Assembly (NCBI GenBank): GCA_017459445.1
Contig: JAFUDJ010000008.1
Location: 1-45,309 of the forward strand
DNA: 45,309 nucleotides
Direction of reading: 5' to 3'
DNA from: Prevotella sp.
Lineage (GTDB): Bacteria > Bacteroidota > Bacteroidia > Bacteroidales > Bacteroidaceae
Both the position numbers and the translations under genes were made by a program. How positions within the stretch are numbered: the first letter of the stretch is position 1; each line of letters begins with the position of its first letter. This document shows, in pieces, positions 18,280-43,518 of the stretch. The notes beneath the pieces were generated by a model. It searched no databases, was not told the DNA's origin, and saw nothing but the letters and a program-made list of their open reading frames with translations.

Positions 18280-18402
18280 TTTACAATGTATGTCTCTATA
18301 GTTTTTTTTCTCTCAAATTCCGGTAAAGATTGCCCGTTTTGGGTAACTTTTGTGCTTTCGGTTCGCAAAAAGTTTCCCATTTCTGGAAACTCTAAGCGGC
18401 TG

Positions 18403-18410
18403 CAAAGATA
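18403..18410 (-). promoter_or_regulatory. -7 promoter element of nrdDG
   Basis: The minus strand reads TATCTTTG, an exact TAnnTTTG match, 123 bp upstream of the nrdD start codon. No clear -33 box is present. The untranslated leader would be over 100 nt, which leaves room for regulation. Confidence 0.55.
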
Positions 18411-18425
18411 CAAAAAACAGCCATA

Positions 18426-18447
18426 TCTTAGGCATAATATCCTAAGA
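18426..18447. promoter_or_regulatory. Inverted repeat upstream of the nrdD promoter, possible operator
   Basis: TCTTAGG (18426-18432) and CCTAAGA (18441-18447) form a perfect 7-bp inverted repeat with an 8-nt spacer. It covers the place where the -33 box of the nrdD promoter should lie, so a dimeric regulator binding here would control nrdDG. The regulator is unknown. Confidence 0.4.
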
Positions 18448-18483
18448 AATTTTTGCAAAAAATAGTTAATTAAAATGAGTGAT

Positions 18484-18506
18484 GACGTATCGCCAACTCA
18501 TACGTC
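18484..18506. promoter_or_regulatory. Inverted repeat upstream of the DapA-family gene
   Basis: GACGTAT (18484-18490) and ATACGTC (18500-18506) are perfect inverted copies with a 9-nt spacer, 37 bp before the start codon at 18544. No TAnnTTTG promoter box was found on the plus strand here, so this may be an operator of an atypical promoter or an RNA hairpin in the leader. Confidence 0.4.
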
Positions 18507-18543
18507 TTTCATATATAATAAGATATAAATATATAATAAAGGT

Positions 18544-19431
18544 ATGAACAAGAGTAAGTATCGCGGTGTGGTGGTGCCGATGGTGACCCCCGTGACTCAG
18601 GACGGACGGCTCGACGTGGAGGCCGTCGAGCGTATTATTGACTTTTTTGCCAAGGCTGGCGTGTCGCCCCTGCTGATGGGTACGACGGGCGAAGGCAACA
18701 GTGTCTCGCAGGCCGACGGTCGGCTGTTCGTTGAGACTGCCGTGAAGGCTGCCGACGGCCGCATACTGATTTATGCGGGCCTGACGGGCAACTGCTTCAG
18801 CGAGCAGGTCAGGCAGGCCGAGGTGTACACCGCCTTGGGGGCTGACGTCATCGTGGCTACGCTGCCGACGTACTATGCGCTGACCGAGGAGCAGATGTAC
18901 GAATACTACAAGACGCTGGCCGACTGCATCACAGGGCCGCTGATGCTCTACAACATCCTGGCCACGACGCACATGTCGATACCCGTTGACGTCATCCGCC
19001 GCCTGGCCGACCATCCGAATATTGTGGGCCTGAAGGACTCGGAGCGCGACTTAGAGCGCATGGCCGCTTGTATTGACATTGCCAAAGGGCGTGACGACTT
19101 TGCCTACTTCTGCGGTTGGGCAGCACAGTCGGCTCACTCGTTGGAACTGGGTGGCAACGGCATTGTGCCGTCGACGGGCAACTACGTCCCCGACATGTTC
19201 CAGCAGCTGTTTGATGCTGCCGTCCGTGGCGACATGCAGGAGGCCAACCGCCTGCAGGACGAGACAAACGAGATAGCCAAGATTTACCAGAAGGACCGCA
19301 CGCTGGGTCAGAGCCTCACCGCCCTCAAGGTGATGATGCAGACGAAGGGCCTCTGCGAACCGTGGATGCTGATGCCGCTTACCCGCCTCTCAGCCGACGA
19401 AGAACAGGCGATAGTAGCCAAAATAGCATAA
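18544..19431 (+). CDS. DapA-family aldolase/dehydratase (N-acetylneuraminate lyase / DHDPS superfamily)
   Basis: A 295-residue (beta/alpha)8-barrel enzyme. Superfamily marks are GTTGEG (46-51), which binds the substrate carboxylate, Tyr136 in LYNIL, and the Schiff-base Lys164 in VGLKDSERD. These enzymes cleave or dehydrate 2-keto acids: N-acetylneuraminate lyase, dihydrodipicolinate synthase, 2-keto-3-deoxy sugar acid aldolase and dehydratase. The usual YNxP is YNIL here and the KDSERD stretch is not that of DapA, so lysine synthesis is unlikely. It heads an operon with an SSS symporter and a GH51 arabinofuranosidase, which favours catabolism of a sugar acid. The exact substrate cannot be told from the sequence. 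Confidence 0.85.
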   Translation: MNKSKYRGVVVPMVTPVTQDGRLDVEAVERIIDFFAKAGVSPLLMGTTGEGNSVSQADGRLFVETAVKAADGRILIYAGLTGNCFSEQVRQAEVYTALGADVIVATLPTYYALTEEQMYEYYKTLADCITGPLMLYNILATTHMSIPVDVIRRLADHPNIVGLKDSERDLERMAACIDIAKGRDDFAYFCGWAAQSAHSLELGGNGIVPSTGNYVPDMFQQLFDAAVRGDMQEANRLQDETNEIAKIYQKDRTLGQSLTALKVMMQTKGLCEPWMLMPLTRLSADEEQAIVAKIA

Positions 19432-19439
19432 CGGAATTC

Positions 19440-19582
19440 TCGAAGCCTCGAATCCTCGAATCCTCGAAATATCGAAACATCGAAACCTCGAAATCCCGAA
19501 ACATCGAAACCTCGAAATCCCGAAACATCGAAACCTCGAAATCCCGAAACATCGAAAAATCGAAATCCCGAAAATCGAAATG
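19440..19582 (+). repeat. 8-bp tandem array, 18 units, ending on the symporter start codon
   Basis: After the stop codon of the DapA-family gene at 19431 the whole gap consists of units of the form YCGAAnnn: TCGAAGCC, TCGAATCC, TCGAAACC, TCGAAATC, CCGAAACA and so on, all 8 bp except one of 7. Units 6-14 form three copies of a 24-bp higher-order repeat. The last unit, TCGAAATG, contains the ATG of the next gene (19580). A second array of the same design lies before porX (40220-40323). The array is purine-rich, with little potential for internal hairpins in the sense strand. Confidence 0.92.
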
Positions 19583-21130
19583 CATTGGATTGATTATTTA
19601 ATCGTATTAGTGTCCATCGCGGCTGCGATAGGTATGGGCATGTACTTCGCCCATCGGCAGAAGGACACGTCGACATACTTTGCCGGCGGCGGAAAGATTC
19701 CTGCCTGGGCGGTAGGTATCTCCATTTTTGCGACACTGATTAGCAGCGTCACGTTCCTCGCATACCCTGGTGCGGCCTATGCCGACAACTGGATACTCTT
19801 AGTACAGGGGCTCATGGTGCCCATCGTCCTGGTGGCGCTCATCGGCATCATCGTGCCGCTGTTCCGCAAGGTCATCCGCCTGTCGACGTATGAATACTTC
19901 GAGCGGCGCTTCGGCCTCTTTGCCCGCCTCTACTCGTCGTTCGCTTTCACACTGGGTCACTTCTCGAAGGCTGGCACGGTGTTCTTCCTCGTCAGCATGG
20001 CACTGGCCACATTCCTGAACATCAACATCTACACCATTGTGCTCGTCCTGGGCGTCACCATCATCATCCTGACGCTGTTGGGCGGCATGGAGGCCATCGT
20101 GTGGATGGATGTGGTGCAGGGCGCCCTGCTCATTGGCGGCGGTGTCATCTGCATCCTCATCCTGATGTTCGGCATCGAGGGCGGCCCGTCAGAACTCTTT
20201 TCCATTGCTGCGCAGTATGACAAGATTTCGTTCGGCCCCTACGACTGGGACCTGACGCAGCTGACCTTCCTCGTCATGGTGCTCAACGGTATCTTCTATG
20301 CCCTGCAGAAGTATGGCACCGACCAGACCATCGTGCAGCGCTACCTCGCTGCCAAGAATGACAAGGAAGCCAAGAAGGCTGCCTACATCGGCGTGCTGAT
20401 GTCGGTACCCATCTGGGCACTATTCATGTTCATCGGTACGGCACTCTTCGCCTACTACCACGCACAGGGTGCGCCGCTGTTGCCTGAGGACATCAAGGCC
20501 GACGAGGTCTTTCCTTATTTCATTGCCCACGAACTGCCTGTCGGCATCCGTGGCCTTATTATTGCCGCCTTGGCAGCTGCCGCCATATCGTCGCTCGACG
20601 CCGACCTCAACTGTCTGTCGGCCATTGCCGTACAGGACTACTACGTCCGTTTCCGCAAGCACTCCACCGACCAGCAGCAGCTGCACTTCGGCAAGTGGAT
20701 GGTGGTCATTGCCGGCGCAGGAGCCATCGGCGTGGCCTGCCTCTACATCTCGTGGGGCGGCGAGGGCGTGCTGGGAGCACTCTTCTCGCTCTATGCCATC
20801 TTCTCGGCGGGCATCGTCGGCATCTTTATGCTGGGACTATTCAGCCGCCGTGCCAACAAACAGGGCCTCTACATTGGCATTGCCGCCGCCGTCGTGTTCA
20901 CGGCCTATGCCGTGCTGACCTCCACCAAGGTCGACATCCACGGCACGGGCGTCAAGGAGACACTGCTCGACTTAGGTGACTGGAACTTCTCGCACCATAA
21001 GTATATGCTGGGTGTCTACTCCCACCTCATCGTGCTCGTCGTCGGCTATCTGGCCAGCTTCCTGTTCAAGACCCCGCTGGCCGACAAGGAACTGACTATC
21101 TGGGGATACTTGGAGGAGCGCAGGAAATGA
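19580..21130 (+). CDS. Sodium:solute symporter (SSS family)
   Basis: A 516-residue inner-membrane carrier with about 13 membrane helices. The start HWIDYLIVLVSIAAAIGMGM and the following STYFAGGGKIPAWAVGISIF carry the SSS signature, and LGGMEAIVWMDVVQGALLIG and ISSLDADLNCLSAIAVQDYY (sodium-site region with S-S-x-D) are typical of sialic acid, pentose and sugar members. It imports a small solute together with sodium. The ATG is embedded in the last unit of the 8-bp array, and its stop overlaps the start of the GH51 gene (ATGA). The likely substrate is a sugar released by the next gene or the substrate of the DapA-family enzyme. Confidence 0.88.
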   Translation: MHWIDYLIVLVSIAAAIGMGMYFAHRQKDTSTYFAGGGKIPAWAVGISIFATLISSVTFLAYPGAAYADNWILLVQGLMVPIVLVALIGIIVPLFRKVIRLSTYEYFERRFGLFARLYSSFAFTLGHFSKAGTVFFLVSMALATFLNINIYTIVLVLGVTIIILTLLGGMEAIVWMDVVQGALLIGGGVICILILMFGIEGGPSELFSIAAQYDKISFGPYDWDLTQLTFLVMVLNGIFYALQKYGTDQTIVQRYLAAKNDKEAKKAAYIGVLMSVPIWALFMFIGTALFAYYHAQGAPLLPEDIKADEVFPYFIAHELPVGIRGLIIAALAAAAISSLDADLNCLSAIAVQDYYVRFRKHSTDQQQLHFGKWMVVIAGAGAIGVACLYISWGGEGVLGALFSLYAIFSAGIVGIFMLGLFSRRANKQGLYIGIAAAVVFTAYAVLTSTKVDIHGTGVKETLLDLGDWNFSHHKYMLGVYSHLIVLVVGYLASFLFKTPLADKELTIWGYLEERRK

Positions 21131-23142
21131 CACATCGACTACTGACCGTTGCGGCCTGGGTCGTCATGGCTATGATGGCTCAGGCGCAAAATGTGCTTGA
21201 CATCGACACCCGCAGGCCGGGTGCCACCATACAGCCTACCATGTATGGCATCTTCTTCGAGGACATCAACTACGCCGCCGACGGCGGCCTCTATGGCGAG
21301 CTGGTGAAGAACCGCTCGTTCGAGTTTCCCCAGCACCTCATGGGCTGGCAGGCTTTCGGACGCTTTGAACTGAAGGACGACGGCCCCTTTGAGCGCAACC
21401 CGTGGTATGTACTGCTCAGCGCCCCCGGCCACAGGGAACGGCGCTCAGGGCTGGTGAATGAAGGATTCTTCGGCATTGGCTTGAAGAAAGGCGAGAGCTA
21501 TCGCTTCTCCGTATGGGGCAAGGCTCCGCAGGGCAGTGCCGCCATCCGCGTCCAGCTGATTGACGAGCATGCCGCAGGCGGGAAGCAGCAGTTCGTGGAG
21601 CAGGAACTGACCGTCGCCTCTTCCGATTGGAAGAAATACACCGTCCTGCTGACCTCGCCCAAGGACGACAAGCATGCCAAGCTGCGCATCTTCCTCAAGG
21701 GGAATAACCCCGTGGCCTTGGAGCATGTGTCGCTCTTCCCCGTCAATACCTATAAGAACCGCGAGAACGGCATGCGCCGCGACCTGGCACAGGCACTTGA
21801 AGACCTCCGCCCGGGCATCTTCCGCTTCCCCGGCGGATGTATCGTCGAGGGCAGTTCGCTCGACGAGCGCTACCAGTGGAAGAATACCGTGGGACCGGTA
21901 GAGAACCGCCCCCTGAACCACAACCGCTGGGAATATACCTTCGACAACCGCTACTTCCCCGACTACTATCAGTCCTACGGACTTGGCTTCTTCGAGTTCT
22001 TCCAGCTGGCAGAGGACATCGGTGCTGAGCCGTTGCCCGTACTAAGTGTCGGCTTGGCATGCCAGTTCCAGAACAAGAACGACGAAAGCGCCCATGCCCG
22101 CATGGACCAGTTGCAGCCCTTTATCGACGACTGTCTCGACCTCATCGAGTTTGCCAATGGCCCTGTGGACTCTAAATGGGGTAGGGTCCGTGCCGGCATG
22201 GGTCATCCGGCTCCCTTCAACATGAAGTATATCGGCGTGGGCAACGAGCAGTGGGGCGACTTCTACTACGAGCGTCTGAAGCCTTTCGTGGCCGCCATCC
22301 GCGCCAAGTATCCCGACATCAAGATAATCGGAACCAGCGGTCCCGACTCCGAAGGCCCGAAGTTCGACCAAGGGTGGGCAGCCATGAGGCAGCAGAAGGC
22401 AGACCTGGTGGACGAACACTACTACCGGGCGGAGGACTGGTTCCTCGGCACTGCCGACCGCGAGCGCTATCCCAACTGCGGCCCGCTGCGCTACGACAGC
22501 TACGACCGCAAAGGCCCGAAGGTCTTTGCCGGCGAATATGCCTGTCACGGAAAGGGCAAGAAGTGGAACCACTATGAGGCTGCCATCTTGGAAGCCGCCT
22601 TCATGACGGGCTTTGAGCGCAATGCCGATGTGGTTTACATGACGACTCCGGCCCCGCTCTTTGCTCACGTCGACGGTTGGCAGTGGCGTCCTGACCAGAT
22701 ATGGTACGACCAGACGCAGATGTTCAAGACCGTCAGCTACTATGTCCAGCAGCTCTATGCCACCCATGCCGGCACCCGTGTGCTGTCGCTTACCATGGAC
22801 AGGAAGCCCGTGGCCAACCAGCCCGGGCAAAACGGCCTCTGTGCGTCGGCAGCCTATGACGACAGGACGCGCGAGGTGATTGTCAAGGTGGCCAACGTCT
22901 CTGACCAGCCGCAGCCCGTACGGCTGAATCTGAATGGTTTCAAGGATGACGCTACCGTCACTACGTTCACGCTGTCGCATGACGGTAAGGACGATGAGAA
23001 CAGCATCGTGCAGCCGGAGCTGATTACTCCGAAGCAAGGCACCCTGCCGCTGACAAACAGCAAGCAGCAGGCCGTTGTTACCGACCTGCTGCCGCCGATG
23101 TCGTTCCGCATCTATTGTGTTAAGGCTGCGTCAAAGCCTTAG
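21127..23142 (+). CDS. Alpha-L-arabinofuranosidase, glycoside hydrolase family 51
   Basis: A 671-residue enzyme with a signal peptide (about residues 1-20). The start DTRRPGATIQPTMYGIFFED and GLYGELVKNRSFE are typical of GH51. A CBM4-like beta-sandwich (about 95-205) is inserted before the catalytic barrel. The acid/base is Glu374 in GVGNEQWGD and the nucleophile Glu470 in VFAGEYACHG. A C-terminal beta-sandwich follows. It removes terminal alpha-L-arabinofuranose from arabinan, arabinoxylan or pectin side chains, here in the periplasm or at the surface. Its start overlaps the symporter stop by four bases, so the two are translationally coupled. It converges on the PL1 gene with only 5 bp between the stop codons. 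Confidence 0.93.
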   Translation: MTHRLLTVAAWVVMAMMAQAQNVLDIDTRRPGATIQPTMYGIFFEDINYAADGGLYGELVKNRSFEFPQHLMGWQAFGRFELKDDGPFERNPWYVLLSAPGHRERRSGLVNEGFFGIGLKKGESYRFSVWGKAPQGSAAIRVQLIDEHAAGGKQQFVEQELTVASSDWKKYTVLLTSPKDDKHAKLRIFLKGNNPVALEHVSLFPVNTYKNRENGMRRDLAQALEDLRPGIFRFPGGCIVEGSSLDERYQWKNTVGPVENRPLNHNRWEYTFDNRYFPDYYQSYGLGFFEFFQLAEDIGAEPLPVLSVGLACQFQNKNDESAHARMDQLQPFIDDCLDLIEFANGPVDSKWGRVRAGMGHPAPFNMKYIGVGNEQWGDFYYERLKPFVAAIRAKYPDIKIIGTSGPDSEGPKFDQGWAAMRQQKADLVDEHYYRAEDWFLGTADRERYPNCGPLRYDSYDRKGPKVFAGEYACHGKGKKWNHYEAAILEAAFMTGFERNADVVYMTTPAPLFAHVDGWQWRPDQIWYDQTQMFKTVSYYVQQLYATHAGTRVLSLTMDRKPVANQPGQNGLCASAAYDDRTREVIVKVANVSDQPQPVRLNLNGFKDDATVTTFTLSHDGKDDENSIVQPELITPKQGTLPLTNSKQQAVVTDLLPPMSFRIYCVKAASKP

Positions 23143-26700: not shown

Positions 26701-26795
26701 AAATCGGCTACGGGTGTGCGCACGCGCGCGAGGGCTGCCTCGCCACCGCCAACTGATGCCCATTGCCCGCCAACGGAGCCTCGCTCGTGGAAAAA

Positions 26796-26888
26796 CGCTC
26801 ACCGTTTTCGGCAAAACGCTCACCGTTTCAGAAAAATCGCTCACCGTTTTCGGCAAAACGCTCACCGTTTCAGAAAAAAACGCTCACC
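26796..26888. repeat. 21-bp tandem repeats in alternating A-B-A-B order
   Basis: Units starting CGCTCACCGTTT begin at 26796, 26817, 26838 and 26859, with a partial fifth at 26881. Type A ends TTCGGCAAAA and type B ends CAGAAAAAT, alternating as A, B, A, B, so the true period is about 42 bp. The array ends about 20 bp from the stop codon of the ATPase gene. Confidence 0.9.
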
Positions 26889-26908
26889 TGTTTAGTTGGA
26901 AGTAGTAT

Positions 26909-38638: not shown

Positions 38639-40216
38639 TTATCGGTTAGACTTTTTACTCTTCAGGCTGATGATGGGGATAATCATCTCCTCCATTGAGA
38701 TGCCTCCGTGCTGGAACGTGTTACGGTAGTAGGAGACGTAGTAGTTGTAGTTGTTAGGATAGGCAAAGAAGTCGTCGCCAGTGGCAAAGACGTAGCTCGT
38801 CGACAGGTTGGGAGCCGGCAGCTGTGCCTTGGCAGGGTCCTTGATGACGAAGAGTTCCTTGGAGTCATAGGCCAGGTTCTTACCCAGCTTATAGCGCAGG
38901 TTGGTATTGGTGTTGCGGTCGCCGATGATTTTGACGGGGTTGGTGGCGCGAATACTGCCGTGGTCGGTGGTGATGATGATACGGTAGTCGGTCTGTGCCA
39001 GCTGTCGGAAGAGGTCGGCGATGACGGAATGGCGGAACCACGACAGCGTGATGCTGCGGTAGGCTGATTCGTTGTTGGCCAGTTCGCGCACCATCTTCGA
39101 CTCCGTACGGGCATGGGAGAGCATGTCGATGAAGTTGAACACGACGACATTCAGGTCGTAGCGGCTGAGGCTGTTCAGTTGTCCTACCAGGCGCTCGGCT
39201 TCTTGGGAGGTGTTGATTTTATGGTAGCTGAACGTGTTCTTGCGGCGGTAGCGCTCCAGCTGTGTCTGGATGAGCGGCCCCTCGTTGAGGTTCTTCCCCT
39301 CTTCTTCGTCCTCGTCGACCCACAGGTCGGGGAACATCTTGGCTATCTGGACAGGCATGAGGCCGGAGAAAATGGCGTTGCGGGCATATTGCGTGGCGGT
39401 TGGCAAGATGCTGCAATACACGTCGTCGTCAATCTCGAACTGGTCGGAGAGCTCGCCTTCCAGCACTTTCCACTGGTCGTAGCGGAAATTGTCGAGTACC
39501 ACGAAAAACACCTTCTCGCCCTCGTTGAGCAGGGGGAACACCTTGGTCTTGAAGACGGCAGGGGAGAGCAGGGGGGCACTGGTCTTCCCCCCAGCGGGAG
39601 ATGAGAGGGGGACCACCCAGTCAAGGTAATTCTGCTTGATGAACTTTGCAAAGCCGTTGTTGGCTTCTTGTTTCTGCATCTGCAGCATGTCGGTCATCTG
39701 CGAGTCGGTGGCGCTCAGCTCCAGCTCCCAGCGTACCAGCTTCTTATAGATGTCGGTCCAGTCATGCCATGTGCGGCAGTCCATAATCTGCATGGATAAC
39801 TGCTGGAACTGCTGCTGATAGCTGCTCTGTACGGTCTCAGTGACGATTTCGCGACGGTGGATGTTCTTCTTCAACGTCAGCAGAATCTGGTTGGGATTGA
39901 CGGGCTTGATGAGATAGTCGGCAATCTGTTGGCCAATAGCCTGGTTCATGATGTCCTCCTCCTCGCTCTTGGTGACCATGACGACAGGTACCTGCGGCGT
40001 AATCTCCTTGATGCGCTGCAGCGTCTCCAGGCCACTGAGACCGGGCATCATCTCGTCAAGCAGCACCAGGTCGAAGGTGCGGTTGCGGCATGCCTCGATG
40101 GCATCGGTGCCATTGGTCACCGTCACCACCTCGTAGCCTTTCTTCTCTAAGAACAATAAGTGGGCGCGGAGCAGTTCCATTTCGTCGTCAGCCCATAGCA
40201 ATAGTCCGTTTGTCAT
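38639..40216 (-). CDS. porX: PorX, response regulator with a PglZ phosphatase domain (type IX secretion)
   Basis: A 525-residue protein starting at the ATG at 40216; the longer frame from 40336 merely translates the 8-bp array upstream and is rejected. Residues 4-120 are a CheY-like receiver (LLLWADDE, acceptor Asp54 in [29 protein letters not shown]). The rest is a PglZ/alkaline-phosphatase-superfamily domain ([37 protein letters not shown]). PorX regulates T9SS gene expression and function in Porphyromonas and related bacteria. Here it follows porW and precedes tsaE. An 8-bp tandem array fills the leader before its start codon. Confidence 0.93.
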
Positions 40217-40219
40217 GTT

Positions 40220-40323
40220 TTTTTCGATGTTTCGATATTCCGAGGTTCCGATATTTCGATGTTTCGATATTCCGATATTTCGAGGTTTCGAGGTTCCGAG
40301 GTTCCGAGGTTTCGAGGTTTCGA
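40220..40323 (-). repeat. 8-bp tandem array, 13 units, in front of porX
   Basis: Read on the minus strand, exact 8-bp units TCGAAACC, TCGGAACC, TCGAAATA, TCGGAATA, TCGAAACA and TCGAAAAA follow each other from 40323 to 40220. They begin 9 bp after the porW stop (40333) and end three bases before the porX ATG. The consensus TCGRAAYM, the sense orientation and the position match the array at 19440-19582. Confidence 0.92.
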
Positions 40324-40332
40324 GGTCCGGCA

Positions 40333-43300
40333 TCATTGGAAGAAGTCGTCGTCGAAGTCCATGTTGCCGCCTTGCTGCGGGGCCGGGCTGTCGAAGAACA
40401 GGTCGTCATCGTTGTTCGATGATGGCTGCTGCTGGGTGCCGTTGCCGTCGTCATCACCCTCGTCGCCCTCGTCTTCATCCTCCACGTCAGAGTCCTCAGA
40501 CTGCCGGATGATGGTCTCCGGCTCGTCAAGGAGCGGAATAGGCGATATAGGCAGGGGTGCCAGCTCTTTTTCGAAGAATACCTCATAGTCCTTATAGCTG
40601 AAGGCGGTACCCAGCAGCCGCAGGTTAGGCTCGCTGACAATCAGGCTTCGGCAACCGTGCAACAGGGCGGACATGTGGCTGTCGGCATAGAGCTGTCGGG
40701 CATACTGCCGGGCCTCGTCGTAGCTGAGGAAACCACTGACGAGCATGCGGGCCAGTCCGTGGGCGTCCTCGTCGATGTTAATCTCGAAGTTGCGGACAAG
40801 GTAGTTGGAGAAGTTGTACTTGGCCATCTCATAGAGCAGCTGGTTCTGGTCCAGCGAGTCAGGCTGGTAGGCCAGCAGGAATATGTAGCTGACGTCGCGG
40901 GCGTTGCTGAGCGTATCGACACGGGTGGAGTCTTGCCCCATCTCACTGCTGCGTAGCGACCAGATGTCGCCGATGTCGAACTTGCCGCCATGCAGGCGAC
41001 GACCCTGCTGGACGCCGCGCAGTATCATGCCGGCCAACTCGCTGACTTCACTTTGCGGGTATTTTTCTACGACCTGCTTCATACGCTCGGTACATGCACC
41101 GGGGTCGCCTTCGTTCAGCAGGCTTAAGCCTTCTATAAAAAGGAATTTCGGTCGGTGCTGTCCTAACGGGAAGCGGCTTTCGGAAATCTGCGTGTTGCCT
41201 TTCACCTCTTGGTGGCGGTCTGCCTTGAACGCCTCGTAGGTGGCAGCATACAGGGAGTCTTCGATGTGTACGCCAAAGCGCTGGTTCTCGGCAAAGTTCG
41301 GGTCGGAGAGCAGAATAGTCCAGTCGCTCTCTGGATAGTCCTGCTGGAGCGTGGCCAGACAGCGGTCGGCCTCCGCCGGTTCTCCACGCCGTGAGAAGAG
41401 CAGCCACAGGTGATACCACGCCTCGTCGTTATGCTCGTAGTCGGGGAACTGGGTGGTGAGGCGGGTGAGTGCCTTTTCTGAAAGGCGCAAATTGTCGAAC
41501 TTGTCCTTGAAGATGATGCCGGAATGGAACAGACCGTCCTTGATAAGGTTGTTGCTCTCGGCCACCTGCTCCTCGGTGAACGGTATCTGGGCCAGGTAGT
41601 ATTCCCGCTTGTGCGGGTCGAGGGCGGCACTATCAGGTGTCTCGGCGGCGATGCTGTCAGTGCCCTCCGAAGTTTCCGTACTTTCTAAAGCCTCCGGATT
41701 ATCTGGATTGTCGGGATTGTCCGGGTCTTCCGCGCCTTCCGGGTTGAGGTTGACCACGGTACGATTGACGCGGCGCCAGTCATCCTGATTCTCGCGCTTT
41801 CCCCACAGCCGCTGGAACGACTGCTTGCCCTGGCTGACAGCTTGTGGGTTATAGAAATACCAAAGGCCATTGGAAGATGCCGTGGGCATAGTCGGCGTGG
41901 TCGGTGCCGACATGTTGTTGGTGCCCTTGGCCGACTCCTGTTGTAGCACTTTCTCGGCTTCAGCTTCCTCCTGGGCGCGGCGCTCCTCCTTCTCTTTCTT
42001 GATAAGTTCCTCTATCAGCTTGTCAATAACCTTGTTGCGCTCTTCCTCCGGCATCTTGGCCAACCGTTGCAGTGAGTCCTGCAACTCTACGGCGTTGGTG
42101 TATGGCACCAGCTCGTCAAGCAGCTTGGAGCGCTCAGAAAGCTGGCGATAGTCTTTGCGGTCCTTGTCGAGCAGTCCGATAGCTTCGCCGTAGCAGCGCT
42201 GGGCATCACCAAACTTCTCCTTATCCCAGTATACATTGCCCAGCGTCAGCAGCAGGACACCTTTCTCTATGCCGCTGCGTGTAGCTTTCTTCACGCCTTC
42301 TTCATAAGCCTCGATAGCCTTGAGCGTGTCGCGTTGCGTCATGTAGATGTTGCCAATGGCATAATATATCTGGTCAAGGAAATCTTTGTTGTTATCGGAA
42401 CGGGCCATGCGGCGCAGACGGCTAATCTTACGCTTGTAGTCGCCGGCAGGCATCACCTCTGTCTGGGCGATGCGGGCATTGAACTCCAATTCGTAGGGCG
42501 GATTGAGGCTTATTACACGTTTAAACGCCTTGTAGGCTTCCGCTTTGTGGCCTGTCAACGACTGTATCTGCCCCATGAGGAACCACTCGCGAGCTTTTTG
42601 CTTGCGGCGCTTCTCGTGCTTGATAGCCTTGCGCAGGTAGGGTATGGCTTCTTCGTAGCGTTGGCTGCGTACATAGTAGTCGGCGTAGGTGTAGTCCCAT
42701 TCGTTGGCGGCGCGGAAGTGCATGCTGTCGCGGCGTTGCTTGACGATGAGGTCTTCGGCATCGTAGAGCCAGTCAAGCTCGACATAGCTCTTGGCTTGCC
42801 AGGCACGGGCACGGCCATAGATGGCGGGCTGATTCTGGTAGAGGCGTGAGACGTAGGAGAATGTGGCAGCAGCCTCCTCGAACTTGCCTTGCTGGAATTG
42901 CGACTTGCCCAACAGGAACCAGGCATGCCACAGGAATGGGTTGTACTCGCGGCGGCTTAGCCATTCTATGTCTTTCTGAGTCTTGCGGCGGCTCTTGTTC
43001 CATTCGGGGCGCACCTTGATGCTGTGTTGCTTGATGGTCTTCTCAGCCTTTTCTATGGCACGGTCGAAATTGGCTTTCCCCAGCTCGCGGCTCGTCTTGT
43101 TGCCGACCATGTACAGGGGAATCACCTCTGTGCAGTTGTCCTTGTTGCCTTTCTCCTTTTCCACCGTGCCGTCGATGAATGCCTGAGAGCCGTTGTAGTA
43201 GGTGTTGTAACGAGCCGTAAACGACTGCCAGAAACGGCTTTGCGGCGTGTTCTTCTTCGTGGAACAGGCGGTGGCTAAAAGTAAAAAGGTAAAAAGGTAA

Positions 43301-43518
43301 AGAAATAAAACAGGGAGATGCCCATGCCCGCATTTCTCTTCCTTCTTTCCTCTTCCTTCTTCCTTCAGCTCTGCCAGCTTGCACTCCAAGCGGCTGCCGC
43401 ATGAGGCACATTCGCCTTCGCCCTTAACGATAGGTTCGTCCTTGCCGCCAAGTGAGAAGATGGCGGCTATGATGCCGAGTGCGACAAGCGATATGATGAC
43501 TATCAGTAGGAAATTCAT
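40333..43518 (-). CDS. porW: PorW/SprE-type T9SS lipoprotein fused in frame to a small Cys-rich membrane segment
   Basis: The frame is 1061 codons. From about residue 68 it reads as PorW/SprE: hydrophobic LPVLFLYLFTFLLL, lipobox ATAC, STKKNTPQSRFWQSFTARYN, then many TPR-like helices (WFLLGKSQFQQGKFEEAAAT, YYVRSQRYEEAIPYLRKAIK), a charged coiled-coil stretch (about 490-540) and an acidic tail (DVEDEDEGDEGDDDG). PorW/SprE is needed for T9SS function and gliding. The first about 62 residues instead form a membrane helix (LLIVIISLVALGIIAAIF) with a CASCGSRLEC cluster, which looks like a separate small protein. No in-frame ATG lies between. An 8-bp repeat at 43281-43302 may explain the fusion. As written, the lipobox is internal, near residue 84. 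Confidence 0.85.
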   Translation of the reverse strand: MNFLLIVIISLVALGIIAAIFSLGGKDEPIVKGEGECASCGSRLECKLAELKEEGRGKKEEKCGHGHLPVLFLYLFTFLLLATACSTKKNTPQSRFWQSFTARYNTYYNGSQAFIDGTVEKEKGNKDNCTEVIPLYMVGNKTSRELGKANFDRAIEKAEKTIKQHSIKVRPEWNKSRRKTQKDIEWLSRREYNPFLWHAWFLLGKSQFQQGKFEEAAATFSYVSRLYQNQPAIYGRARAWQAKSYVELDWLYDAEDLIVKQRRDSMHFRAANEWDYTYADYYVRSQRYEEAIPYLRKAIKHEKRRKQKAREWFLMGQIQSLTGHKAEAYKAFKRVISLNPPYELEFNARIAQTEVMPAGDYKRKISRLRRMARSDNNKDFLDQIYYAIGNIYMTQRDTLKAIEAYEEGVKKATRSGIEKGVLLLTLGNVYWDKEKFGDAQRCYGEAIGLLDKDRKDYRQLSERSKLLDELVPYTNAVELQDSLQRLAKMPEEERNKVIDKLIEELIKKEKEERRAQEEAEAEKVLQQESAKGTNNMSAPTTPTMPTASSNGLWYFYNPQAVSQGKQSFQRLWGKRENQDDWRRVNRTVVNLNPEGAEDPDNPDNPDNPEALESTETSEGTDSIAAETPDSAALDPHKREYYLAQIPFTEEQVAESNNLIKDGLFHSGIIFKDKFDNLRLSEKALTRLTTQFPDYEHNDEAWYHLWLLFSRRGEPAEADRCLATLQQDYPESDWTILLSDPNFAENQRFGVHIEDSLYAATYEAFKADRHQEVKGNTQISESRFPLGQHRPKFLFIEGLSLLNEGDPGACTERMKQVVEKYPQSEVSELAGMILRGVQQGRRLHGGKFDIGDIWSLRSSEMGQDSTRVDTLSNARDVSYIFLLAYQPDSLDQNQLLYEMAKYNFSNYLVRNFEINIDEDAHGLARMLVSGFLSYDEARQYARQLYADSHMSALLHGCRSLIVSEPNLRLLGTAFSYKDYEVFFEKELAPLPISPIPLLDEPETIIRQSEDSDVEDEDEGDEGDDDGNGTQQQPSSNNDDDLFFDSPAPQQGGNMDFDDDFFQ
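43281..43302. repeat. 8-bp tandem repeat in the porW signal-peptide region
   Basis: GTAAAAAG (43281-43288), GTAAAAAG (43289-43296) and GTAAAG (43297-43302) lie head to tail. Removing one 8-bp unit would place the ATG of MGISLFYFFTFLLLATAC in frame with the rest of porW, giving an ordinary 18-residue lipoprotein signal peptide. In the present sequence that ATG frame stops after MGISLFYFFTFLPFYF. Confidence 0.85.

Follow-up and report, generated by a model that had tools for sequence, protein, structure and literature searches.

The stop-to-start junction between a DapA-family gene and a sodium:solute symporter gene in Prevotella sp. (contig JAFUDJ010000008.1) is filled throughout by an array of TCGAAANN octamers (19431..19582, forward strand), and arrays of the same family stand, with very few exceptions in the same orientation, before many other genes of this genome. 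The array is probably an intercistronic spacer that acts as a putative 5' leader of the next gene in the operon, a reading drawn from sequence comparison. It is not settled by what means ribosomes in Bacteroidetes that lack Shine-Dalgarno (SD) sequences select the starts of internal cistrons within operons, and the question becomes directly testable with a natural series in which the repeat leader at one junction, ahead of familiar genes such as ftsW, measures anywhere between zero and about 200 bp. Furthermore, the differing repeat families at orthologous junctions indicate that operon spacers change by a route that we did not find described for the Prevotella group in the open-licence PMC literature.

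The octamer array between the DapA-family and symporter genes

The stretch of 45,309 nucleotides analysed here (the window) codes, on its forward strand, for a DHDPS/DapA family protein (18544..19431; Pfam PF00701, E 1.9e-56) as the cistron upstream of the array and for the sodium:solute symporter (19580..21130; Pfam PF00474, E 1.2e-40), whose start at 19580 is conserved in orthologs, as the downstream one. The symporter end overlaps in an ATGA with a third cistron, an alpha-L-arabinofuranosidase (21127..23142, forward strand; Pfam PF22848 and PF06964). The 18 YCGAANNN units that the original prediction had read at 19440-19582 were borne out by the unit listing and by TRF, and a degenerate unit overlapping the DapA stop has to be added to them; the stop reads TAACGGAATTC, and the repeat extends leftward into the stop codon (TAACGGAATT). 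TRF reported a period of 8 at 19439-19573 and a period of 24 (5.5 copies, 92% matches) at 19449-19580. The 24-bp higher-order repeat thus stood, whereas the perfect 8-bp periodicity claimed along with it did not, the length of 143 bp being 17 x 8 + 7 with a penultimate unit, CCGAAAA, of only 7 bases. Matches to the two-unit pattern YCGAAANNYCGAAA with at most one mismatch numbered 24 in the window, against a mean of 0.59 and a maximum of 3 in 100 dinucleotide shuffles. The last unit had been proposed to supply the start codon; array-free orthologs, however, have the ATG at the same place, and TCGAAATG therefore reflects an ancestral ATG. A sigma-70 scan of 18300-19700 placed promoter-like sites only upstream of or inside dapA and left the gap empty, and symporter homologs on plasmids taught nothing about the leader.

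A second array of the same octamer family lies on the reverse strand of the window, in the 116-bp gap 40217..40332 (units at 40220-40323), and spans from the stop of a TPR protein gene (40333..43518, reverse strand; Pfam TPR models) to the ATG of a gene for a response-regulator receiver and PglZ protein (38639..40216, reverse strand; Pfam PF00072 and PF08665). The start of the latter was placed at 40216 by orthologous starts, as against 40336 in the longest open reading frame, which begins within the array region. A 21/42-bp tandem array (GGAAAAACGCTCACCGTTTTC) was also observed outside called genes at window positions 26789-26893.

Distribution and orientation of the arrays in the genome

Searching the genome (1.97 Mb, about 55% complete) with a three-unit pattern gave 115 overlapping matches, compared with none for the reversed control. 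The array counts rest on a sample of about 390 kb, composed of 19 stretches (345 kb) around listed arrays of the earlier contigs together with the window; the stretches were picked for holding arrays, not for where the arrays sit. In this sample, 34 of the 38 arrays with at least three units lay in sense direction between tandem genes, one lay antisense between tandem genes and three calls fell in a single divergent region. None occurred in convergent gaps or in coding sequences, the genes, starts and coding sequences being those of our own simple caller (285 genes), the codon score of which works against repeats at the margins of genes. The sample comprises 209 tandem, 28 divergent and 28 convergent pairs with gap totals of 34.0, 14.4 and 3.5 kb, respectively, so that by length about 2.6 of the 38 arrays would be expected in convergent gaps and their absence there is weak evidence, which cannot be said of the tandem direction.

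The predicted position directly before start codons was recovered in this sample, since 34 of 35 arrays between tandem genes were sense and 26 of these 34 ended within 15 nt of the ATG (median distance 10.5 nt). The sense arrays have a median of 10 units (range 3-20) and usually begin a few bases past the preceding stop codon, in six of the 34 cases at or before its end. The -7 element TAnnTTTG, the Bacteroidetes -7 consensus, was present in 0 of 34 tandem gaps with arrays and in 36 of the 96 array-free tandem gaps no shorter than 40 bp (Fisher p 2.9e-6). When different gap limits were applied, arrays were found in 34 of 103 promoter-free and 0 of 27 promoter-bearing tandem gaps, while the single divergent gap with arrays carries a -7 element. 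By their place, their direction and the missing -7 element, the array gaps look like spacers inside operons.

The repeat unit

A motif-free search for period 8 found 44 of 130 tandem gaps to be periodic, and 35 of the 44 were assigned to TCGAAANN by their consensus. Among 439 units, C2, G3 and A5 are 89-92% constant and positions 1, 4 and 6 are 75-83% constant; G never occurs at position 7, where C, T and A are found, and makes up 3% of position 8. Neighbouring units are only slightly more alike than units genome-wide, and the units within an array have diverged. The shared core together with this low excess of similarity within arrays indicates a genome-wide family rather than local slippage of unrelated sequences. 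The purine richness that had been noted for the array is not strong, as the periodic windows of 39 such array gaps average 57% purine; A exceeds T in 36 and C exceeds G in 33 of the 39.

A constant core of this kind could also be a recognition site: NCGNAA, recurring every 8 nt, would be read by a protein that binds RNA or by one of the ribosome, for instance S1, and ribosomes at internal cistrons would thereby be recruited or regulated. The return of one family by a motif-free search, the constancy of positions 2, 3 and 5, the near exclusion of G from the variable positions 7 and 8, and the strong sense orientation beside start codons are all consistent with such a site. Nevertheless, related species carry unrelated repeats or none at the same junction, no regulon is visible among the 20 downstream proteins scanned, and compensatory changes that would support a hairpin were not seen, which together make a recognition site distinctly unlikely. 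Within units, positions 1 and 4 form Watson-Crick combinations in 250 of 377 cases (256 expected), and between neighbouring units in 259 and 244 of 404 (264 and 252 expected). Hairpin beads, i.e., UCGA pairing of neighbouring units, were ruled out by this absence of covariation at positions 1 and 4 both within and between units. Growth of the arrays from one end was rejected as well, there being no polarity (3' half better in 19 of 33 arrays and worse in 12 of 33).

The regular YC every 8 nt, the excess of C over G and the freedom of the tandem array gaps from promoter elements would also suit an element acting on the transcript, for example a site of Rho loading or RNA processing through which the relative amounts of the cistrons of an operon would be set. 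This appears extremely improbable, considering that C amounts to about 23% in the unit profile, which is low for a rut site, and that a search of 18300-21300 against Rfam gave no match at the gathering score.

Properties of the putative leaders and downstream genes

The intercistronic leader reading was examined by folding 35 of the 38 arrays, three being skipped because they had no in-frame ATG within 60 nt in the sense direction. The unpaired fraction of the start region (-20..+20) was 0.66 in array genes (n=35) compared with 0.52 in other genes (n=231); it was 0.61 with shuffled leaders, the native array being higher in 27 of 35 cases, and 0.42 with leaders turned antisense (native higher in 31 of 35). 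The stability of the 80-nt leaders was -11.7 kcal/mol for array genes, -12.4 for other genes and -8.0 for shuffled array leaders, so the array leaders are more stable than their own shuffles (mean z -1.7, n=35), and the fact that they are not less structured speaks against the leader reading. The weak folding that had been predicted for the array is not borne out: the leader at the DapA-symporter junction folds about as its shuffles do (z -0.07), but over the 35 leaders the 80 nt ahead of the ATG form more stable structures than their shuffles, although the start region is more open.

The arrays read in sense contain 10 ATG in 3,254 bp (3.1 per kb), as opposed to 89 (27.4 per kb) in the antisense reading and 116 in 6,288 bp (18.4 per kb) in the remaining tandem gaps of this genome that lack a promoter element. 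Other repeat families hold 17.6 ATG per kb in sense and 24.1 in antisense, and non-periodic gaps hold 17.6 and 17.9, respectively. AUG avoidance as a rule for every repeat family was rejected on the sense value of these other families, and their failure to avoid ATG in such gaps also counts against the leader reading. Adenine occupies position -3 in 23 of 34 array genes and in 119 of 272 called genes.

As described in the accessible parts of two studies, Bacteroidetes without SD sequences choose their starts through leaders that are open, an A at -3 and a scarcity of additional AUGs near starts (PMC3155529, PMC6847099). The best account of the direction of the arrays is that the sense octamer meets these demands of SD-less leaders better than its antisense does. 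The absence of SD, low structure, A at -3 and scarcity of extra AUGs are shared with the leaders treated there, whereas the text available from these papers deals with composition, structure and single positions and not with tandem repeats (PMC3155529, PMC6847099).

Pfam was used to scan 20 of the 36 different downstream genes, selected by our own choice. The proteins are mostly core ones, including EF-Ts, FtsZ, FtsW, D-Ala-D-Ala ligase (Ddl), oxaloacetate decarboxylase beta and MeaB, and further a family 4 glycosyltransferase, an AcrB-type transporter and phosphoglucomutase; the genes in stretches L167 and L171 match polysaccharide-synthesis families, and one of the 20 had no Pfam match. Neither a regulon nor a typical set of switching genes is visible among these 20 proteins.

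Arrays in other genomes and relation to known repeats

The strict three-unit pattern occurs in 19 of 150 genomes of the genus, this one included, 16 of them with few matches and three with many, while the rest have none. A named scan, for which we assigned the taxon groups from record titles, gave at least 115 loci (63 in gut-type Bacteroidales, 9 in other Bacteroidota including sediment Bacteroidales and 43 in the remaining taxa), and these counts are not independent, as several loci share one genome (9 of the 63 come from CAJOLE01 alone). Among the matches listed, gut-type Bacteroidales hold 69 arrays, of which 52 are tandem sense and two tandem antisense, five lie in called coding sequences, three are convergent, three divergent, three at an edge and one is one-sided. 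The 13 arrays of other Bacteroidota among the matches listed include three tandem sense and six tandem antisense ones, and the 48 arrays of the remaining taxa, likewise among the matches listed, include 11 sense, 4 antisense, 7 convergent, 8 divergent and 13 in coding sequences. Orientation bias is thus absent or weak outside gut-type Bacteroidales, which makes the link to leaders a feature of that group and not a property of the octamer as such. Arrays at random positions and orientations were not what we found, in agreement with the proposed leader: besides the tandem sense preponderance in the genome sample, with 0 of 38 arrays in called coding sequences or convergent gaps, 52 of 54 tandem arrays are sense in gut-type Bacteroidales among the matches listed. 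TCGAAANN arrays were also observed in other phyla, namely in Spirochaetales RUG12558 (L093, L101, L112, L122) and in Planctomycetota (L083, L086, L104, L108), with units such as TCGAAACG and without being linked to start codons in any consistent way.

Cyanobacterial short tandemly repeated repetitive heptamers are, like the octamers described here, short tandem repeats found in intergenic DNA genome-wide; to our knowledge, no orientation directed towards start codons belongs to them. Of the published cases found, the closest is the TAACTGA repeat of Beggiatoaceae, heptamer direct repeats also present in some Cyanobacteria and five Bacteroidetes (MacGregor 2015, PMC4679880). According to the accessible sections of that paper, the repeats in the BOGUAY genome and in F. 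litoralis are mostly forward and shortly before start codons, are tied to no functional gene class and were proposed to have a translational role (PMC4679880). Thus far the two cases are alike, with many loci that are mostly intergenic, forward and near start codons. They differ in the unit, which is 7 bp in TAACTGA, with related heptamers rarely repeated, and 8 bp with degenerate positions in the octamer. Copy number is given in those sections as two to six per set in BOGUAY and up to 43 in some Bacteroidetes and Cyanobacteria (PMC4679880), a wide range; the octamer arrays have a median of 10 units and a range of 3-20. New in comparison with the TAACTGA case, as far as it is covered by the same sections, are the filling of the gap from stop to start, the absence from promoter-bearing tandem gaps and the occurrence, in relatives, of different repeat families at some of these junctions. 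For Prevotella, no report of octamer leaders or of repeat-filled operon spacers was found in the open-licence PMC literature.

Turnover at orthologous junctions

Orthologous junctions were compared with one genome per species, G040 and G153 having identical places and, as apparently one genome, being counted once. The DapA-symporter gap measures 148 bp in this genome and -14, 4, 4, 5, 23, 26, 44, 55 and 61 bp in nine relatives, the symporters of which are 90-92% identical; octamer units are present in four of the nine, one merely a degenerate 23-bp stretch. In two relatives at a greater distance (68-69%) the gaps are octamer-free and measure 47 and 51 bp; one relative has no DapA neighbour. 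The gene upstream of the TPR-PglZ junction is kept at 12 of 15 loci (two of the 12 from one genome), and these 12 comprise five octamer arrays, three other short repeats (TGTAAAAT, AATTGTMA and AAATGAT) and four junctions with neither. The gap before ftsW, whose upstream gene is by position a putative murD, is filled by 197 bp of octamers in this genome and 63 bp in G040, while other close relatives have repeats of CCCATAAG or of CTAG, short unclear gaps or gaps of -4, 0 and 6 bp, and two distant members of the genus have 855 and 249 bp. In the FtsW protein tree this genome (G000) pairs with G040 (support 93/93, which falls short of the tool's star), and G083 pairs with G007 (100/99). CTAG repeats before ftsW are common to G083 and G007, but their TPR-PglZ junctions differ. 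A CTAG-centred family of short repeats was observed before ftsW in G083, G007 and G151 (L345, L347, L349). When 34 junctions were compared with the relatives' loci already in the sample, some relatives had the octamer, some another repeat and some none.

The predicted variability in length was thus recovered between species, with a DapA-symporter gap that ranges from an overlap to 148 bp and another junction that has four units in G152 and five in its sister species G156. The flanks of this junction are homologous and not identical, with substitutions upstream and a short difference in length around the ATG. A contingency locus, in which the number of units would differ between cells and switch or tune expression, had also been suggested from the repeat; the one-unit difference between sister species and the 24-bp higher-order repeat, suggestive of recent duplication, point in that direction. 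As opposed to this, the units within arrays have diverged and the scanned downstream genes are mostly core, with two (L167, L171) from polysaccharide-synthesis families, and switching of this kind is judged very improbable.

The exchange of repeats at orthologous junctions leads to a wider reading, which is conceivable but fairly unlikely. The operon spacer in one SD-less Bacteroidales clade might be a modular, replaceable part, with repeat families of short period taking up places in the gaps from stop to start, lengthening so as to fix how far apart the cistrons stand, and giving way to one another in related species, one sense-only octamer serving as a general ribosome-entry leader for internal cistrons.

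A clade-wide habit of tandem repeats

Stretches of relatives were taken by contig number and inspected for significant periods of 6-10 bp in promoter-free tandem gaps of 30-600 bp. Periodic repeats were present in 18 of 51, 14 of 45, 17 of 43, 20 of 50 and 10 of 41 such gaps in five relatives, compared with 2 of 40 in G016 and 0 of 27 in G010 (same genus, distant) and 1 of 29 in G175 (other family); in our own genome, where the sample was picked for arrays, 46 of 103 were periodic. Six clade samples taken together also had periodic repeats in 19 of 118 promoter-bearing tandem, 17 of 83 divergent and 13 of 56 convergent gaps, and the repeat habit is therefore not confined to leaders. Period 7 is dominant in the gaps of the five relatives, in which the octamer family was found five times, on each occasion sense and between tandem genes without a promoter element. 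Both orientations are seen for some heptamers, while the two commonest heptamer families, AATAGTG and AAGAGTG, were sense in all 8 tandem gaps where they gave the best period (G159, G007, G152, G083 and our own stretches) and may be a second directional family.

Tandem repeats in called coding sequences amount to 111-183 per coding Mb and intergenic ones to 969-1773 per Mb in six clade genomes (the stretches of our own genome being array-picked), compared with 47-67 and 358-490, respectively, in three comparison genomes. The raised densities in both coding and intergenic DNA point to a duplication-prone clade. The MutS of this genome (L341, G000:C27:66100-69000) carries an in-frame, low-complexity, repeat-rich insert of about 45 residues, and MutS matches are split at the same place in G158 and G159 and unsplit in G007, G040, G074, G156 and G157. 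Loss of mismatch repair was rejected as a general cause: mutS1 scored above the cut-off in 13 of 17 genomes, among them 8 of 11 clade members (clade membership being our own count), so its loss is not general in the clade, although three members may lack it. The genomes below the cut-off were G083 (84% complete), G009 (99% complete, outside the clade), G151 and G152.

The arrays might accordingly be a pure mutational product, in which frequent tandem duplications survive where they are harmless, in promoter-free gaps, with no role of their own and with an orientation bias left by the removal of harmful versions. The higher density of repeats in the clade, in coding and intergenic DNA alike, the repeat-rich insert in the MutS of this genome and the several unrelated repeat families that occupy gaps, convergent ones included, would be expected on these terms. 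The octamer, however, surpasses the other families by far in directionality and keeps more strictly to tandem gaps that lack a promoter element, and a core common to the loci would not be expected had every array sprung from the sequence at its own locus. The lack of octamer arrays in the 28 convergent pairs of our own sample is small evidence, and 3 of the 69 gut-type arrays among the named matches listed are convergent. On balance a mutational origin of this kind seems fairly unlikely.

The spacer and leader reading can be joined to the repeat habit in one course of events, in which a duplication-prone clade would grow operon spacers. The arrays would arise and change through duplication or loss of whole units, and selection would keep those that behave as good leaders for ribosomes working without Shine-Dalgarno sequences, a good leader being A-rich, poor in start codons and such that the start region is left open. 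TCGAAANN passes this leader filter in one orientation only, which would explain the strand bias. Along with the points on ATG and on structure given above, and with the spread of the other repeat families into promoter-bearing, divergent and convergent gaps, the core common to the loci speaks against the leader reading, being more constraint than a plain spacer needs, and so do the repeats in coding sequences. Periods divisible by three make up 34 of 40 coding repeats in our own genome, 14 of 30 in G159 and 6 of 19 in G083, to which gene calls may contribute; the prevailing non-multiples of three in G159 (16 of 30) and G083 (13 of 19) are not predicted by a simple reading-frame filter.

Two further kinds of repeat were observed in these genomes. 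Long gaps of our own genome (L161 from 5817 onward, L164 at 18089, L167 at 7301 and L171 at 234) hold 22-bp repeats around ACTTTTATGTCAAAC with inverted copies. Stretches L274-L293 of G040 and G083 contain heptamer arrays (AATGAGA, GTTGGCT and others), sometimes with inverted copies, that enter the apparent start of the next gene.
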